Made by a program: the position numbers and the translations under genes. A stretch of 52,863 nucleotides of DNA from assembly GCA_026981975.1 (NCBI GenBank), contig JALSHV010000027.1, forward strand, positions 1 through 52,863, written 5' to 3'. Numbering within the stretch: position 1 is the first letter of the stretch; the number at the start of each line of letters is the position of its first letter. The notes beneath the pieces were generated by a model that saw only the letters and a program-made list of their open reading frames with translations, was not told the DNA's origin and made no database searches. Positions 33,121 to 40,508 of the stretch are shown here, piece by piece. The stretch comes from Aquificaceae bacterium (GTDB taxonomy: Bacteria; Aquificota; Aquificia; Aquificales; Aquificaceae).

Positions 33121-33140
33121 AATTATTTATTATATAAATA

Positions 33141-34778
33141 ATGGTTCTGCTACTGGCTCTAATGATAGGTGTGATTTCTACCTTAGGTGCTGAATATCTT
33201 GTAAAATCACCGATTCCCCCCACTTCTTTTAAAAAGAAAATTTCAGAAGACGTGTATTTAGTAGAAAAAGCGGATCTTCAAATTCTAGGTCTTAAAAGGT
33301 CAGGAGTTTTACTGGAAAAAAACCATAAATTGAAAATTTTCAATGTTCCTTTAGATCCCTGCTTAGAAAGGTGGGATCTTGAATTTATAAGAGCTTATAA
33401 GGCATGGGATATATTTACAGGTAGCGAAATAGTATACGTAGGACTTCTTGATACAGGAGTAGATTACAACAATCCCGATTTAAAGGTAAACTTGTGGAAA
33501 AATACAGCGGAGTGCGGTGGAGTTCCGGGCATTGATGATGACGGGAACGGTTATGTAGATGACTGTTTCGGTGTTAATGTTTTGTGCTATCCCAAAGGTA
33601 GTTATGATCCGACAGCCACAGGTTGCAATTCTCCTGACGCCTTAGATGATAACGGTCACGGAACTCATGTAGCCGGTATAATCGGAGCTGTAGGTAACAA
33701 CAACTTCCTTACAGTAGGTATAAACTGGAAAGTTAAGATAATTCCCTGTAAATTTTTAAATTCCGCAGGTATAGGTGATATAGCGGGAGAGATAGAGTGT
33801 TTAAAATACATAAGATCTTTAAAGGAAAGAGGTTTAAACGTAGTCGCAGTCAACGCCAGTTACGGTGCTATTTATCCCGCTTCTGACATTCAGAAATCGG
33901 AGATATCTAAACTGGCAGATTTAGATATCCTTTACATAAGTGCTGCGGGAAACTGGGGGTTCAGTAATGAAGAAAACGGGGTATATCCTTGTAATTACGA
34001 TCTTGAAAATCAAATATGCGTGGGAGCGATAAATCCAGAAGGAGATAAGGCTTACTTTTCTAACTACGGACAGCAAAAAGTAAAACTTCTTGCTCCAGGT
34101 GAAGAAATTGCCAGCTTAAAATCTGGAAGTTACAGTAATGACTGTCAGCAATCCCTTGTAAAAATAAGCGGAACTTCTATGGCAACGGGTTTTGTTACAG
34201 GAGGGGTTGCTCTTTTGAAAGGATACAATTCACTTTTAAATTACAAAGACTTAAAGAAAACAATAATTATCAATACACGTAAGAATTTGAATCTATCCGA
34301 ACATACATACTCCTGTGGTGTTTTTGACCTTTACAGTCTCTTCACAAATGAAACGGAATCCTTTCTTTGTCTGAGCAGACTAACTATAGATTTCGGCACC
34401 GTGTCCTCATGCACAACTCTGAGAGAATCGCTCGTTGTCCGGAATACGGGATCTAATTCCCTTGTTGTAAGGGAAATTTCTGTTAACGGAAAGGGATTTT
34501 TTCTGAAATCGGACAACTGTTCCGGAAAAACACTTGATCCATTAGAAGAGTGCAAACTTTCAGTGGAGTTTAATCCGCCCAAAACGGGAAACTATACAGG
34601 AAAGATTTTTTTCTATACGGACAAGGTTGTAGCTGAAGTTAATCTAAAAGGAAAATTGGACTCTTCAGAACTTATTGTGTGTTACTCAAGCTCCGGGTGT
34701 AATAACGGAATAGGATACGCTTTTGTTGTTATTCCTTTACTTTTTCTTAAAAGACTTTTAAAAATTCGTTTGCTATAA
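33141..34778 (+). CDS. Secreted subtilisin-like serine protease with Cys-containing C-terminal anchor
   Basis: This 545-residue S8 protease has a short hydrophobic signal (residues 2-16) without a clear basic n-region. The catalytic triad is D104 (GLLDTGVD), H173 (GHGTHVAGI) and S346 (SGTSMATGF), with oxyanion N271. Many cysteines suggest disulfides. Residues about 385-510 form an ASH/choice-of-anchor-type beta domain (DFGTV, VVRNTGSNSL, VEFNPPKTGNYTG). The last 31 residues are Ser/Gly-Cys-Asn (Cys520), a hydrophobic stretch and a Lys/Arg-rich end, resembling MYXO-CTERM or Synerg-CTERM sorting tails. A TATATAA box a few bases before the ATG and no Shine-Dalgarno suggest leaderless expression. 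Confidence 0.9.
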   Translation: MVLLLALMIGVISTLGAEYLVKSPIPPTSFKKKISEDVYLVEKADLQILGLKRSGVLLEKNHKLKIFNVPLDPCLERWDLEFIRAYKAWDIFTGSEIVYVGLLDTGVDYNNPDLKVNLWKNTAECGGVPGIDDDGNGYVDDCFGVNVLCYPKGSYDPTATGCNSPDALDDNGHGTHVAGIIGAVGNNNFLTVGINWKVKIIPCKFLNSAGIGDIAGEIECLKYIRSLKERGLNVVAVNASYGAIYPASDIQKSEISKLADLDILYISAAGNWGFSNEENGVYPCNYDLENQICVGAINPEGDKAYFSNYGQQKVKLLAPGEEIASLKSGSYSNDCQQSLVKISGTSMATGFVTGGVALLKGYNSLLNYKDLKKTIIINTRKNLNLSEHTYSCGVFDLYSLFTNETESFLCLSRLTIDFGTVSSCTTLRESLVVRNTGSNSLVVREISVNGKGFFLKSDNCSGKTLDPLEECKLSVEFNPPKTGNYTGKIFFYTDKVVAEVNLKGKLDSSELIVCYSSSGCNNGIGYAFVVIPLLFLKRLLKIRLL

Positions 34779-34807: not shown

Positions 34808-35503
34808 ATGAAGCGTTTGATGTTTGCTTTATTTTCAACGTCCCTGATAGCATTCTCTCAGGATTATAAAGCTTTTGGTGGAGTGTGGATAGGACAGACA
34901 TCTTACAAAGATGGAGAAACTCCCGCTCTGAACGTAGGTTCCTTCTTCTTGGCTCAATCTCCTTTCTTGGAAAATCTACACTTCGGCTACGGAGTATCTG
35001 CAAATACAAACATAGCGGTTGGTTCCGTCATAGGAGCGGATAGTTTTGGGAACATTGTGGCGGTGAATATAACAGGTGTTGCTGTTCATCTTCCCTTTGA
35101 AGCCAATGTTGCCTATGTTTTGGGAACTCCAAAGATCAGAGGTTGGATAGGAGGAGGTCTTAATATAAGTATTGCACAAGCCAACGTTGTTCTCTCCTAC
35201 ACAGATCTTACCAACGGGATTAACTGCAGTGCAAGTGTAACAGGTAAGACAGAGTTCACTCCCGGATTTCAGATATTCGGTGGTGGAGAATACGTATTTG
35301 GCGGATTGCCTACCATAGGCGGTATTTGGGGTGTTTTTGCTCAGCTTAAATACATGTATGCTAAGGAAGTAGATATGAGTGTAAGCGGAAACGTTGAATG
35401 CACGGATACACTGGGCAATAGGATAACGCAGTCTGTAGACGAAAGTATATCAATAGATCTTTCTAACACTTCCTATGTAGTGGGGCTTTCCTATCACTTT
35501 TGA
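34808..35503 (+). CDS. Outer-membrane beta-barrel protein
   Basis: This 231-residue protein has a signal peptide (about 1-18, cleavage after IAFS) followed by alternating strands rich in Gly and aromatics, and ends in VVGLSYHF. The terminal Phe is the usual BAM recognition residue. Two cysteines (near NCSA and ECTD) lie in likely external loops. A good AGGGAGG ribosome site precedes the ATG. It follows the subtilisin-like gene by 29 bases and may be cotranscribed with it. The specific function, porin or structural, is not evident. It overlaps the convergent wzz-like gene by ten bases. Confidence 0.82.
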   Translation: MKRLMFALFSTSLIAFSQDYKAFGGVWIGQTSYKDGETPALNVGSFFLAQSPFLENLHFGYGVSANTNIAVGSVIGADSFGNIVAVNITGVAVHLPFEANVAYVLGTPKIRGWIGGGLNISIAQANVVLSYTDLTNGINCSASVTGKTEFTPGFQIFGGGEYVFGGLPTIGGIWGVFAQLKYMYAKEVDMSVSGNVECTDTLGNRITQSVDESISIDLSNTSYVVGLSYHF

Positions 35504-36648
35504 GAACGTCTACGACGAGCTTCGGAAAGCCATTCCGTAAACAGAGCTAAGAATACACCTCCGAAAAGGGAGGAGATTCCGGCAACCGCTATTATTAGTT
35601 TTTTCTTAGGTTTTACCGGTATATCTGGATCGGAAGGAGGATCAATTATCTCCACGTGTATAAAATCTCTTTGCTCTTCCAGTTTAGCCTGTTCGTAAAG
35701 TTTTAACAGGGTTTCATACTTAGCCTGTAATCCTTTTACTTTTAGAAAAATCTCCGTATGGCGAGCCATCTTTTCCGGAGTAGCTTCAAGACTCGGTATA
35801 GGTGAAAATCCGCCTGTGGAACGTTCTATACTAGCGAGCTGTTTTTCTACTTCTTTAATCTGATTTTTCAAATAAGTCAGCCTAGGACTGTCGGGAGATA
35901 GAACATTTTCCAGCTTACGGAGTTCCATCTGAAGGCTTATCCTTCTAGAAAGGAGTTCTGTATAAAGCTCTAAAGCTCCTTTGATTTGTTCTTGAGGAAC
36001 TAAAATCTTTTCCTTCTTCTGAAACAGAGCGAATTCTTCTAAAGCTTTTCTAAGATCCTCTTCTGTTTCCTTAAGCTGTGATTCCAGAAATAATCTGTTA
36101 GCTTTAGCAACGGTAAGTGCTTTTTCCTTCAGTATTTGCTTTAACTCTTCTAAAACAGCAGTGGCTATAAGCTTAGCAAGTTCCTTATCCGTATACTCCA
36201 CTCCTATGGTTATCAAACCAGTTTTTCTATCTGAACTTACAGTTATGATCTCCTCAAGAGAAGAAACCGCAACACTAAGAGGATCTCTTCCCTTAGGAAC
36301 TTCCTTTGCTAAAATTTCCACAAGATTGAGTTTTTTCACTACGCGCTCCCTTAAGGTTCTACTTTTTAAAACTGCCATTATCTTGGAAGAAGTATTTTCT
36401 CCCTTTATTTGAATTCCTAAGAACTGTCCCGCCAATTCCGCAATTCCGGAAGTGGGTTGAGAGGATACAGGTATAACTGAAGCCTCCGATCTGTATACGG
36501 GTTTCATAAGAAAACTTACAACTGTTGCTAATACTAATCCGATAGTAAAGAAGGAAAAGATTAATTTCTTTCTTTTTAAAAGTATTTCCCAAAGTTCGTA
36601 GAGATCTATTTCCTCTTCTGATGTAGGATACTTCTTATTTTCTTCCAT
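35494..36648 (-). CDS. Wzz-type polysaccharide chain-length determinant / copolymerase
   Basis: This 384-residue inner-membrane protein has two membrane segments, at about 30-50 (SFFTIGLVLATVVSFLM) and 347-370, flanking a periplasmic coiled-coil domain of some 290 residues. This is the Wzz/PCP topology. The N-terminal EEEIDLYELWEILLKRKK and the proline-rich PPSDPDIPVKPKKK before helix 2 are family signatures. There is no tyrosine kinase domain, so it is PCP-1 or kinase-less PCP-2. It is the third gene after the OPX and Wzi-like genes and probably sets polymer length during export. Confidence 0.88.
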   Translation of the reverse strand: MEENKKYPTSEEEIDLYELWEILLKRKKLIFSFFTIGLVLATVVSFLMKPVYRSEASVIPVSSQPTSGIAELAGQFLGIQIKGENTSSKIMAVLKSRTLRERVVKKLNLVEILAKEVPKGRDPLSVAVSSLEEIITVSSDRKTGLITIGVEYTDKELAKLIATAVLEELKQILKEKALTVAKANRLFLESQLKETEEDLRKALEEFALFQKKEKILVPQEQIKGALELYTELLSRRISLQMELRKLENVLSPDSPRLTYLKNQIKEVEKQLASIERSTGGFSPIPSLEATPEKMARHTEIFLKVKGLQAKYETLLKLYEQAKLEEQRDFIHVEIIDPPSDPDIPVKPKKKLIIAVAGISSLFGGVFLALFTEWLSEARRRRSQK

Positions 36649-36650
36649 GA

Positions 36651-38096
36651 TTATAGCCTCCAGCTTATGGCAAACTGAAAGCTAAAAAAGTTTTTATTTT
36701 CCCTTACAATTTTGAAATGCACAGGGGAGGGATTTTTATCGTAGTTATGAGTTCTGTCGTATCTAAGTGCTAATCTTAAGATTAAACTTTTAAGTCTCTT
36801 CTCTCCACCCAAGGAAATAAAATACCTTTTCATTGAAGGTTTCTCCGTAAGCGGTTTCTCGTAAAGACCTAACTGATATTTGAAAGAAGAGCTTTTGGAA
36901 AAATAAAACCTGTGAGAGAGAATTAAAGATCTGGAATCCCTTCCGTATGGATGTCCTAAGGGAATACCCCGATACGTGTATCCTTCTATACCGTAAATAT
37001 GGTGAATATACCATTTATCGCTTACCTTTGTAAATTCAAGCCTGAGTATATGTTTATCTGTTGACATTAAAAACCCCGCTACATAACTCATAAAAAGCAG
37101 TTTAAAACCAAAGGGAAAGTAGAATTTACCTCTATCCTCTTTTTGCCACCACGCTTTTATATCAGTTCCTGCTTCTTGATAGTAAACCCTAAGGGTTTTC
37201 ACACTTTTAAAAATCCTGTTTACAGGTAAGTTAAGACTTATATCCCAACCTCCGTATCCGTCAGAATCGTATTTACTATAAGGGATATTCTCTTCAGAAC
37301 CTATAATCATTTTTGGATATTCTGTTAACTTCAACCCAGGTCTTCCTTTTCCACCGAAAAGGGCGCTTCTGGTTCCTCCCAATTCAAGAGTATCAAAAGG
37401 TTTCCAAACAACCCTCAAAGCCAAGAGATTCGGGTTATCTATATCCTTTCTTTTCTCTTTTAACCAACCTTTTAAAAATATAAAGTCCCATTTTCCAAAG
37501 ACTTTAAAGGATTCCTCAGTTTGAATTTTTATAAGAAAGAACGGCTCCGCCGTTGAAGAGAGAAATAATCCAAACCTACCGGGTCCTAAATGGACGTTGT
37601 CTTTTCCTGCCTGAAGGGAAACCTTCCCAATTTTGAACTTGGCGTAGCCTCTGAAAAGTTCTACTTTCTGCAGCCTGTTCCTTTTAACATGTCTGATCTG
37701 GTAGTAAAGAACAAAATTTTTGCCTGTAGATAAAAATCCGTCCGCAAAGTTGTAGAGATTAATACCTTTTCTTAGAACTGTTCCCGCACTGTTTTCAAGA
37801 AGGAAAAAATCTTCAGTAGTATGCATTACCTTCATCGTTAAGGAATTTAAAGGTTTCCAGTAATACCCCGGCGCAGAAAGAGCATTCATATAAGTCTTTA
37901 TCCTGCCAGGATTTTCCACAATTACGTAAGCTTTTTCTAAGGAAAACGGCTTAATGGAAAAGTTAAAGTAAGGGTATGCTGAAGAAGATTCAAGATTTTC
38001 ATAGACTATATACTCTTCTGTATTGAGATTAAGTAAGGGGTTTGCTAAGCAACAAGTATAGAAAACAATAAAAACTGTAAGAAGCCTTACATTCAT
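36651..38096 (-). CDS. Wzi-like capsule assembly outer-membrane protein
   Basis: This 481-residue protein has a signal peptide (MNVRLLTVFIVFYTCCLA) and then a long run of amphipathic beta strands ending in FQFAISWRL. The block DNVHLGPGRFGLFLSSTAEPFF matches the conserved Wzi segment (W/H-GPG-x-x-x-x-L-L-S). Wzi holds surface polysaccharide at the cell surface. Position between the OPX and Wzz-like genes, with gaps of three and two bases, supports a role in capsule or exopolysaccharide anchoring. Glycosyltransferases are not in the window. Confidence 0.85.
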   Translation of the reverse strand: MNVRLLTVFIVFYTCCLANPLLNLNTEEYIVYENLESSSAYPYFNFSIKPFSLEKAYVIVENPGRIKTYMNALSAPGYYWKPLNSLTMKVMHTTEDFFLLENSAGTVLRKGINLYNFADGFLSTGKNFVLYYQIRHVKRNRLQKVELFRGYAKFKIGKVSLQAGKDNVHLGPGRFGLFLSSTAEPFFLIKIQTEESFKVFGKWDFIFLKGWLKEKRKDIDNPNLLALRVVWKPFDTLELGGTRSALFGGKGRPGLKLTEYPKMIIGSEENIPYSKYDSDGYGGWDISLNLPVNRIFKSVKTLRVYYQEAGTDIKAWWQKEDRGKFYFPFGFKLLFMSYVAGFLMSTDKHILRLEFTKVSDKWYIHHIYGIEGYTYRGIPLGHPYGRDSRSLILSHRFYFSKSSSFKYQLGLYEKPLTEKPSMKRYFISLGGEKRLKSLILRLALRYDRTHNYDKNPSPVHFKIVRENKNFFSFQFAISWRL

Positions 38097-38099
38097 ATT

Positions 38100-40472
38100 T
38101 TACAACCTCTTAGCCAATACTGCAGTGGATATAGCCTGAAAAATAATCTGAACTACGTCTCTTATAAGAGGTCTCCACATAGTAGGGACTTTGAGTTTTG
38201 AAGGAACTACAACTGTATCCCCTTCTTCCAAGGGCAAATCCATAAAATCTTTAGCAAAGTAAAGTTTGTTGTCTTTCCAATTAAACGCTAAGGTTTTTCT
38301 GTAGTTTCTGCGGGATATAACCCTGCCGTTTGCTTTGATTACGTATATATTTTCAAGATCCGCATTAGTTGCAGGTCCACCTACCTGATTCAGATAATAC
38401 GACAGGGTTGCTCCCTTTCTAAAGGGAAGCGATATTTGATTGTAAACATCTCCTAAAACAAGAATATAGTTCGGTCTTGAGGGTATGTATATGTAATCAC
38501 CGGCTTCTAAAATTATATTATCCTTGCTTTTCTTAAGTTCTTCTAAGGTTTCTGGAATATCTAAGGCTATTCTGCCTAATCCTATCTGAGCTTTATGTTT
38601 TATAAGTTCATACAGTCTCTTCTGTTTTCTTAAAGTTATTTCTAAAGCTCTTCTTTCCTCCGCAGAAGCACCTGTAAGTTCTAATCCCTCTTCTCCTTTA
38701 ATAAGGCTCTCTTCTAAAACACTCAATGCTATTTTGAGGTGTTCCTCCTGCAATTTCTTTGCACTTTCTCTTACAAATACAATTCCCTTCGGATAGGCTC
38801 TGGTTGTATACCCTCCTGCTTTGAGCAGTAAGTCGTAAAGGGTCATTCCCTTTTCAAGTTTGTAAATACCGGGTTTTACAACTTCACCGAGAACAGTAAC
38901 TGTTTTATCCTTTTCAACCGGGCTCGTTTTTTTAACAACCACCCTATCACCCGGCATTAAGGCTAAATTGTTCTTACCCTCAACGAGAAGTTCAGAGAGA
39001 TATACAGTAGTAAGAATTTTTATTTCTTCTGTTTCTTTCTCCTCTGTTTCTTCCACTGTTTTTGTTATTCTGTATATATCAACTCTCAGTTTATTTATCT
39101 CTTGGGTAAACTTTTTCTCCCTTAAAACGTCCAAAAGGGTTATCCCTTCATAAAAGGGAATAACGGTTGGATTTTCAACTTCTCCGCTTAAATAGATTGG
39201 AGGAAAAACCCAACGTGGGAAAAACCGGACTATATCGTAATTCTTTAACTCAAGGTTCGTTTTACCTTTCACAACGTCAAGAGGAACAAATCTGAGAATT
39301 TTCAGAGAGTAATCGGGAGGTGTTCTTCTTAAAATTTCTCCGTAATACATATTTGTATCAGGCAAAAGCTTAACTTTAAACACAAGATCTTTAAGTGTTT
39401 TTGTCTCTTCCAGAGAATAAAAGCCCGGATACGCTACAAATCCTTCAACGTGTATTCCTTCCTGAGGTTTTCCTGTATATGCACCTTCCAGTATGATTAA
39501 GTCACCGTCTTTAATGTGATACTCAAAACTACCTTCCCGCACGCTTATCTTTCCGTTTTCGTAGCGTTTAATCTTTATAAGAGGAAGATAAGCGGAAGGT
39601 AAAATTCCTCCTGCCAAGGACAGAACTTCTTTGAGTTTTTTCTCTTCTTTAACTTCGTAAATTGCGGATCTTTTAACCGCTCCAACTACACCAACCGTTT
39701 CACCTATGGGAGGGACATAAATAACATCTCCGTCAGTTATTTTGATATTAATCTTCTTACCCTTTATCAAGAAATCGTATAGATCTACCTTTATCTCTTC
39801 ACCGCTATTTTTTCTAATAACTATATTCCTGAGACTACCACTTTTTAAAACTCCTCCTGCTGACGCGAGGATGTCTATAACAGAATCCGTTACTGTAGCT
39901 GTTACTATGCCGGGTTTTTTCACAAAGCCGGAAACGTAAACAGGAAATTTTCTAAGTTTGCCTAAGGATACTTCTATACTGAATCTTTTGAATTTACGGG
40001 ATAACTTCTTCTTAAGCTCCTCTCTGAAATCAGAGACACTTTTACCCCATAAATACATTACACCCACAGAGGGAATAAAAACCTTTCCCTCCCTGTCTAT
40101 TTGGACTCTGTAAAAGCTGTCCAAGTTTAAAACTTCAACGGGATCTCCCCAAAAGTAAATTACAAGTTCATCTCCCGGTCCCAGTATGTAAGAATCTCCC
40201 ACTGGAACGGAAACGATAATTTCTTTTTTTTCAAACACATCGTAACCAAACTGCCTCAGTTGATCTTCAGGGTATAAGTCTTTGTAAATTTTTTCTATTG
40301 GAGACAGAGGTTCTTCAACTTCTTTGTCTGTTTCCTCTTCTAAGTCTTCTTCTGGAGAAATTTCCGTAACTTCTTCATAGAGAAAGTCCTGAAAATTATT
40401 TACCTCTTTCTCCTCCGAATTTTGGGAAAGAGCAAAACACAAAGAGATTAGGAAAGCAAGCACAACAAACAT
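38100..40472 (-). CDS. Polysaccharide export outer-membrane protein (OPX, multiple SLBB repeats)
   Basis: This 790-residue secreted protein has a signal peptide (MFVVLAFLISLCFALS), an acidic linker, an export domain (YILGPGDELVIYFWGDP, IPSVGVMYLWGKSV near 110-200) and about six SLBB repeats (for example VYVSGFVKKPGI, VGVVGAVKRSAIYEV, VHVEGFVAYPGFYSL, VTVLGEVVKPGIYKL). It is related to Wza-like channels but much longer. The frame stays open to a TTG at 40490, yet those codons contain the GAGGAGGGG ribosome site, so ATG 40472 is the start. The C-terminus (VVQIIFQAISTAVLAKRL) is amphipathic and may form the membrane helix. Confidence 0.9.
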   Translation of the reverse strand: MFVVLAFLISLCFALSQNSEEKEVNNFQDFLYEEVTEISPEEDLEEETDKEVEEPLSPIEKIYKDLYPEDQLRQFGYDVFEKKEIIVSVPVGDSYILGPGDELVIYFWGDPVEVLNLDSFYRVQIDREGKVFIPSVGVMYLWGKSVSDFREELKKKLSRKFKRFSIEVSLGKLRKFPVYVSGFVKKPGIVTATVTDSVIDILASAGGVLKSGSLRNIVIRKNSGEEIKVDLYDFLIKGKKINIKITDGDVIYVPPIGETVGVVGAVKRSAIYEVKEEKKLKEVLSLAGGILPSAYLPLIKIKRYENGKISVREGSFEYHIKDGDLIILEGAYTGKPQEGIHVEGFVAYPGFYSLEETKTLKDLVFKVKLLPDTNMYYGEILRRTPPDYSLKILRFVPLDVVKGKTNLELKNYDIVRFFPRWVFPPIYLSGEVENPTVIPFYEGITLLDVLREKKFTQEINKLRVDIYRITKTVEETEEKETEEIKILTTVYLSELLVEGKNNLALMPGDRVVVKKTSPVEKDKTVTVLGEVVKPGIYKLEKGMTLYDLLLKAGGYTTRAYPKGIVFVRESAKKLQEEHLKIALSVLEESLIKGEEGLELTGASAEERRALEITLRKQKRLYELIKHKAQIGLGRIALDIPETLEELKKSKDNIILEAGDYIYIPSRPNYILVLGDVYNQISLPFRKGATLSYYLNQVGGPATNADLENIYVIKANGRVISRRNYRKTLAFNWKDNKLYFAKDFMDLPLEEGDTVVVPSKLKVPTMWRPLIRDVVQIIFQAISTAVLAKRL

Positions 40473-40508
40473 CAATCTTCCCCTCCTCAATACGGACTTC
40501 GCTGTTAT

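Follow-up and report, generated by a model that had tools for sequence, protein, structure and literature searches.

A likely cysteine-type C-terminal sorting tag on a subtilisin-like protease of Aquificaceae and a candidate CPBP sorting protease inherited with it

The closest described systems to the locus analysed here are the tag–enzyme pairs MYXO-CTERM/MrtX of Myxococcus xanthus, Synerg-CTERM/MrtS and JDVT-CTERM/MrtJ, together with VesB of Vibrio cholerae, a serine protease whose C-terminal GlyGly-CTERM tag is the business of a rhombosortase. MYXO-CTERM tags combine a Cys signature, a helix and a basic end, and MrtX is a CPBP protein with the catalytic pattern EExxxR/HxxxN, for which cleavage was demonstrated experimentally in 2025, E. 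coli being a host in which it cut MYXO-CTERM, while the acyltransferase that would lipidate the MYXO-CTERM-type Cys is still to be identified, according to PMC11980579. In a passage of PMC11980579, the JDVT-CTERM/MrtJ pair is reported from beta- and gammaproteobacteria only, with one client per enzyme. Our literature search returned no description of such tags in Aquificota. A 2024 study by Haft, reportedly the key bioinformatic study of this subject, may already mention them.

The window, as we call the whole analysed stretch of 52,863 nucleotides, is contig C27 of an Aquificaceae genome of 1.61 Mb in 29 contigs that is 99.94% complete. The first-pass annotation had described a subtilisin-like protease in it, ending in a Ser/Gly-rich segment, a Cys, a hydrophobic stretch and a Lys/Arg end, and the open reading frame at 33141-34778 confirms this description. 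Its features are:

33141..34778, plus strand: S8 subtilase with an Ig-like stalk and a probable C-terminal Cys sorting tag, 545 aa plus stop, ATG start.
33141..33191, plus strand: probable N-terminal signal peptide MVLLLALMIGVISTLGA, judged by eye.
33432..34292, plus strand: Peptidase_S8 catalytic domain, residues 98-384 (PF00082, E 9e-43).
34374..34640, plus strand: HYDIN/VesB/CFA65-like Ig domain (HYDIN_VesB_CFA65) of the choice-of-anchor D type, residues 412-500 (E 2.1e-8).
34686..34775, plus strand: probable tripartite sorting tag SSSGC-helix-KRLLKIRLL, residues 516-545 (tail profile A1, E 3.3e-6).

The catalytic Asp, His and Ser lie in the motifs DTGVD at residue 104, HGTH at 173 and GTSMA at 344, the Cys of the tag is residue 520 (codon 34698-34700), and the C-terminal 31 residues are Y-SSSGCNNGIGYAFVVIPLLFLKRLLKIRLL. 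A match to the choice_anch_D model fell below its cut-off (38.2 against 45 bits). With 17 cysteines, the sequence would fit an exported protein. Inspection of 33121-33191 by eye revealed no clear ribosome-binding site upstream of the gene and a signal peptide without a basic residue ahead of its hydrophobic core. A polysaccharide export cluster at window positions 35494-40490, with a chain-length protein of the Wzz type, a Wzi protein of capsule assembly and a Poly_export protein that contains five SLBB stretches, lies 3' of the subtilase gene and of an intervening gene for a 231-aa protein, for which no family match was found. The domain layout can be compared with that of VesB, which we take to be a serine protease, an Ig domain and a sorting tag, and after which the Ig family of the window protein is also named. 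Unlike VesB, the window protease belongs to family S8, its tag contains a Cys, and its likely processing enzyme is a CPBP protein and not a rhomboid. The likely job of this client is proteolysis at the cell surface, either to feed the cell or to mature other surface proteins.

The Cys-helix-basic tail is more than a chance composition, since a layout filter was passed by one of the 47 ORFs of 150 aa or more in the window and since the tail is kept in homologues. Matches to the subtilase were obtained in 32 of the 41 genomes searched, its own included, some of them to the Ig domain only, and a tail filter found the Cys-helix-basic tail at the end of 15 of 20 fetched loci, again counting its own. 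Of the others, L016 has by eye the same tail with a longer end, L018 and L020 have a tag that the profile locates later in a frame at the same site, and L005 is broken at a contig end, with a tag on another contig of its genome, where the end of the query finds a match as well; L014 is the sole one of the 20 without a visible tag. A set of 32 tails has an invariant Cys, preceded by Gly in 31/32 and followed by Ser or Asn in 27/32, figures that characterize the motif without testing it, as these tails were hand-picked for likeness.

Like a MYXO-CTERM protein, the window protein carries a Cys signature, a hydrophobic helix and a basic end at its extreme C-terminus; its Gly-rich G-C-S/N motif lacks the GCGC signature given for MYXO-CTERM in Fig. 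7 of PMC11980579. Synerg-CTERM (TIGR04564) was the only named sorting tag among the matches listed for the window tail, with 13.5 bits under a cut-off of 22.5 bits, and this cut-off was passed in 2 of 41 genomes (23.3 and 22.7 bits), one of them of the same genus. The matches listed for the window protein included neither MYXO-CTERM (TIGR03901, TIGR03382) nor JDVT-CTERM (NF033191, cut-off 27 bits), and those listed for its tail included no GlyGly-CTERM model. A relative, L084, scored 13.1 bits with TIGR03382, under the cut-off of 15.85, and two positive controls, L137 and L161, exceeded the JDVT-CTERM cut-off.

We then looked at how many proteins share the tail, for which the first-pass annotation had expected ten or more in the genome. 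Genomes of the phylum were searched with two profiles, A1, built from 23 tails including that of the window as one row, and A4, built partly from tails spotted beside the enzyme (L124, L128). In the own genome, A1 returned one credible tagged protein, the window protein itself (E 3.3e-6), compared with the 35 tagged proteins of M. xanthus reported in PMC11980579. Seven weaker matches, at E up to 10, were also obtained: those in C13, C1 and C8 were rejected on reading as not being the C-terminal tag of any ORF there, and the remaining four sit in frames of 35-72 aa. A search of the same genome for the GCNNG pattern at the DNA level gave one extra site, likewise rejected because it does not end an ORF with such a tail. 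Among relatives, the largest number was 8 matches (G079), several of which lie in short frames where a contig ends, so that the true number of tags there is uncertain. The expectation of ten or more was therefore not borne out. A4 misses the window's own tail, which A1 detects, so that calls of tag absence are soft; the union of A1 and A4 was used for tag calls, and matches at E about 0.014 in G059 and G066 are real tails.

Domain scans of seven tagged Aquificota proteins gave matches to S8, SBBP propeller, PKD, Flg_new_2 and choice-of-anchor Q/U domains; the window's own genus is represented among them by L106 (S8) and by L090 and L084 (SBBP). Relatives, but not this genome itself, thus have one tail shared by unrelated ectodomains, as is characteristic of a sorting domain. 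These observations bear on another possibility, in which the tail is a plain, never-cleaved membrane anchor and the CPBP protein works in unrelated housekeeping. A hydrophobic helix and a basic end suffice for anchoring, and the own genome has a single detected tail of this kind. Against this, a plain anchor would need no Cys motif common to unrelated proteins.

The prediction of a candidate sorting protease was upheld. A single CPBP/Rce1-family protein is encoded in the own genome, 180 aa long and located on contig C25 (L003:1276-1818), which matches PF02517 at E 2.4e-17 (63.7 bits, gathering cut-off 22.4) and whose six best NCBIfam models are all Mrt, that is, myxosortase-type. By eye, its gene adjoins ORFs resembling thiD, aroD and nadD. 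The best of these matches was Mrt_core (NF040914), with 59.6 bits under a cut-off of 100; scores against cut-offs were 48.4/130 for MrtS, 45.1/75 for MrtJ and 34.3/180 for MrtX. The Mrt_core cut-off was reached in 0 of the 41 genomes searched, and L137, an enzyme that exceeds the MrtJ cut-off, likewise stays under that of Mrt_core with 62.5 bits. Four scanned Aquificales enzymes scored 44.7-67.7 bits with Mrt_core (L128 giving the 44.7), and three unrelated CPBP proteins, from a Clostridium, an actinomycete and a Thermoplasmata archaeon, had ABC_perm_CPBP as first match and 34.4-36.5 bits with Mrt_core. The presence of a CPBP protein is by itself unspecific: among 14 control genomes, PF02517 was matched in 11, and 8 gave a Mrt_core match that stayed below the cut-off of that model.

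The own CPBP protein contains the motifs EEIFFR and HFSAN, corresponding to the MrtX pattern. An ORF with EExxxR and HxxxN was present in 30/30 fetched enzyme loci, and both motifs occupy the same columns across 18 aligned enzymes, an invariance that is partly due to selection because the 18 were chosen from motif-bearing loci. The closest named relatives of the protein, at 52-62% identity, come from four Aquificaceae bins and one genome labelled Aquifex aeolicus. For a homologue 61% identical to it, L113, a predicted model (pLDDT 94.8) was aligned by VIA-align with SpdC (6u0o) at Z 13.4 and with Rce1 (4cad) at Z 12.1, the next row being at 5.3; 4cad is MmRce1, and SpdC is a CPBP relative, both being CPBP structures. 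On this model, the L113 homologue has the Rce1 fold, at 14-16% identity to the SpdC and Rce1 structures, and such a shared predicted fold does not indicate a function. Foldseek returned no match of the L113 enzyme model to the PDB at E 0.001, and the enzyme sequence profile gave one chance match and nothing significant against PDB chains.

A rhomboid is the other type of enzyme to consider, because the tail could be a GlyGly-CTERM-like signal cut by the genome's own rhomboid in the manner of a rhombosortase. Indeed, the genome has one rhomboid (E 3e-36), GlyGly-CTERM tails are also rich in Gly and Ser according to PMC6219818, and VesB, whose name the Ig family bears, is a rhombosortase client. 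At E 0.01, however, the rhomboid matches GlpG only, with 19.3 bits against a cut-off of 250, no rhombosortase model matches it, and the tail has no GlyGly-CTERM match in its list. Rhomboids were found in 14/14 control genomes, so the presence of one says little. We consider processing by the rhomboid to be very improbable.

The CPBP enzyme and the tag were then compared across genomes. Out of 136 genomes searched, the co-occurrence table comprises 114 (G000-G113), G114-G135 (22 genomes, f5 wherever listed) being left out. A tag was called at E <=0.05 with a start at model position <=6 in an open frame of >=100 aa, the frame minimum being eased to 80 aa where E was <=1e-3. By this definition, a tag is present in 59 of the 76 genomes that have the enzyme and in 4 of the 38 that lack it (Fisher p 3.5e-12), and within-genus shuffles of the tags reached the observed count in 19 of 20,000 trials. 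At the level of the 21 listed genera, 18 have both tag and enzyme in some of their genomes, 3 have neither and none has only one. The table includes ten genomes of G098-G113 that never appear in any match listing and were counted as neither by subtraction, and without them it reads 59/76 against 4/28 (p 5e-9). Weak short-frame matches were set aside in G017, G097 and G068, which have no enzyme, and in G043, which has it; counting all four gives 60/76 against 7/38 (p 5e-10). With A1 only, the figures are 57/76 against 4/38. G010, for which a frame of 37 aa is listed, was counted via its other matches.

The exceptions fall on both sides. A tag without a detected enzyme was found in four genomes, G066, G088, G073 and G087, whose completeness is 99%, 96%, 87% and 85%, respectively, and the enzyme without a detected tag in 17. 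Two of the tagless genomes, G056 and G057, belong to one genus and have enzyme frames of only 126 and 125 aa (loci L222 and L220). The match of these open frames to the enzyme model starts only at position 32, a pattern that decay of the enzyme after the loss of its clients would produce; the remnants are alike, so that the two genomes represent one event at most. Gaps in draft assemblies can also hide both genes at once.

The neighbourhoods of the two genes point in the same direction in part of the phylum. Tag and enzyme matches lie <=2 kb apart in 11 genomes of four genera (G023 and G079; G026, G032, G034, G039 and G102; G040; G071, G072 and G074), cases that share ancestry within these genera, so that a Poisson estimate for them is too strong, and in three genomes of g17 the gap is 5.6-6.1 kb. 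In the own genome, the two genes are on separate contigs and are not adjacent. Among the named loci, the tag filter was passed by 6 of 350 ORFs within 1 kb of the enzyme gene against 1 of 647 beyond (p 0.009), a comparison in which known JDVT pairs are counted and which carries little weight for Aquificota by themselves. Twenty neighbourhoods were inspected, of which three are those of known tag–enzyme neighbours; the other 17, from 16 genomes, contained no tag bar one filter match in L220, rejected as it looks like an ordinary membrane protein. As a positive control, JDVT-CTERM tags over the cut-off were recovered beside the CPBP gene at the two Campylobacterota loci L137 and L161, and the L137 enzyme exceeds the MrtJ cut-off. 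The Aquificota pair resembles JDVT-CTERM/MrtJ in this adjacency and in its few clients, and differs from it in the tag and enzyme scores given above and in the separate location of the two genes in the own genome.

Returning to the plain anchor, the 17 genomes with a CPBP protein and no detected tag, and the four with the reverse, are what it would allow. It would need neither the co-inheritance of the tail with a CPBP gene nor their adjacency in four genera, and we regard it as unlikely. The earlier suggestion that the tail is a sorting domain is thus largely supported, by the unrelated ectodomains, the co-occurrence with CPBP and the adjacency in several genera. We therefore favor, with good confidence, the reading of the tail as a C-terminal sorting domain of the Cys type, with the 180-aa CPBP protein as its cognate myxosortase-type intramembrane glutamic endopeptidase. 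This pairing is proposed on comparative evidence from sequences, namely the tag, the enzyme, their co-inheritance and their neighbourhood, together with the occurrence of Lgt and GspD.

By analogy with MrtX/TraA (PMC11980579), the subtilase would be exported by Sec and held in the inner membrane by the helix of its tail, the Cys of the tag would be lipidated, probably before cleavage, the CPBP enzyme would cleave after this Cys, and the T2SS would move the anchored protein to the cell surface. The lipidation, the cleavage site, the T2SS route and the surface location are all carried over from that analogy. As in M. xanthus, the genome encodes Lgt and a T2SS secretin, a GspD over its equivalog cut-off, and the needed partners thus exist; both are common, and neither proves anything alone.

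Whether this pair should be filed under a family that already has a name is a separate question. The tag may be Synerg-CTERM with MrtS as its enzyme, the low scores reflecting divergence, which overlaps with the reading favored here, as the mechanism is identical and only the filing differs. Synerg-CTERM is the sole named tag listed for the window tail, two relatives pass its cut-off, the own enzyme matches MrtS, and L125, from Hydrogenothermaceae, has MrtS ranking first with 74 bits. On the other hand, no tail exceeds the Synerg-CTERM cut-off in 39 of 41 genomes, the MrtS cut-off of 130 is reached by 0 of 6 scanned Aquificota enzymes, and Mrt_core or MrtP outscores MrtS in 5 of the 6. We hold this assignment to be possible but doubtful. 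By the curated cut-offs, the own pair is placed outside the MYXO, Synerg and JDVT families, with a border to Synerg-CTERM that is soft because two relatives cross it.

The best explanation is that the Aquificota pair is a mostly unnamed variant of the myxosortase/Cys-CTERM system. The idea that the lineage has its own system survives in so far as tag and enzyme mostly fail to reach the cut-offs of named NCBIfam families; as a variant of the MYXO/Synerg/JDVT type, it brings no new principle. A known sorting scheme would thus extend to a lineage in which, for the genomes tested here, NCBI family models leave both tag and enzyme mostly unnamed. Its small genomes with one or few clients would give a short client list, its proteins, if heat-stable as the lineage suggests, would be good material for structure work, and a wider range of genomes would become available for seeking the lipidating enzyme by co-occurrence. 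More tentatively, and with somewhat less than even confidence, Aquificota may carry their own, old and minimal Cys-CTERM system, with an enzyme that some species keep for one client. If so, CPBP sorting would be an old housekeeping route of thermophilic diderms and not tied to surface-rich social bacteria, and a one-client genome would be a clean place to seek the missing Cys-lipidating enzyme.

Some further observations concern genomes beyond the table and the phylum. The set G114-G135, which is probably Desulfurobacteriaceae, the family of L126, has a more distant CPBP protein in 20 of its 22 genomes, with only weak matches of the tail models, at E 0.01-0.05, in four, and may use a different tag. 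The enzyme of L126 (1936-2571), labelled Desulfurobacteriaceae, scored 92.9 bits with MrtP and 81.0 with Mrt_core and is nearer to both than the window's enzyme. A Denitrovibrio locus, L134, has a MrtJ over the cut-off. In Nitrospira, L164:3273-5795 encodes a protein that combines glucose/sorbosone-dehydrogenase and PKD domains with a tail of 24.6 bits against the JDVT-CTERM cut-off of 27, in a frame that overlaps the CPBP frame by 23 bases. A Planctomycetales protein (L160:553-2097) has a tail of the form SGGGC...RRRRA and lies 3.5 kb from a CPBP gene.
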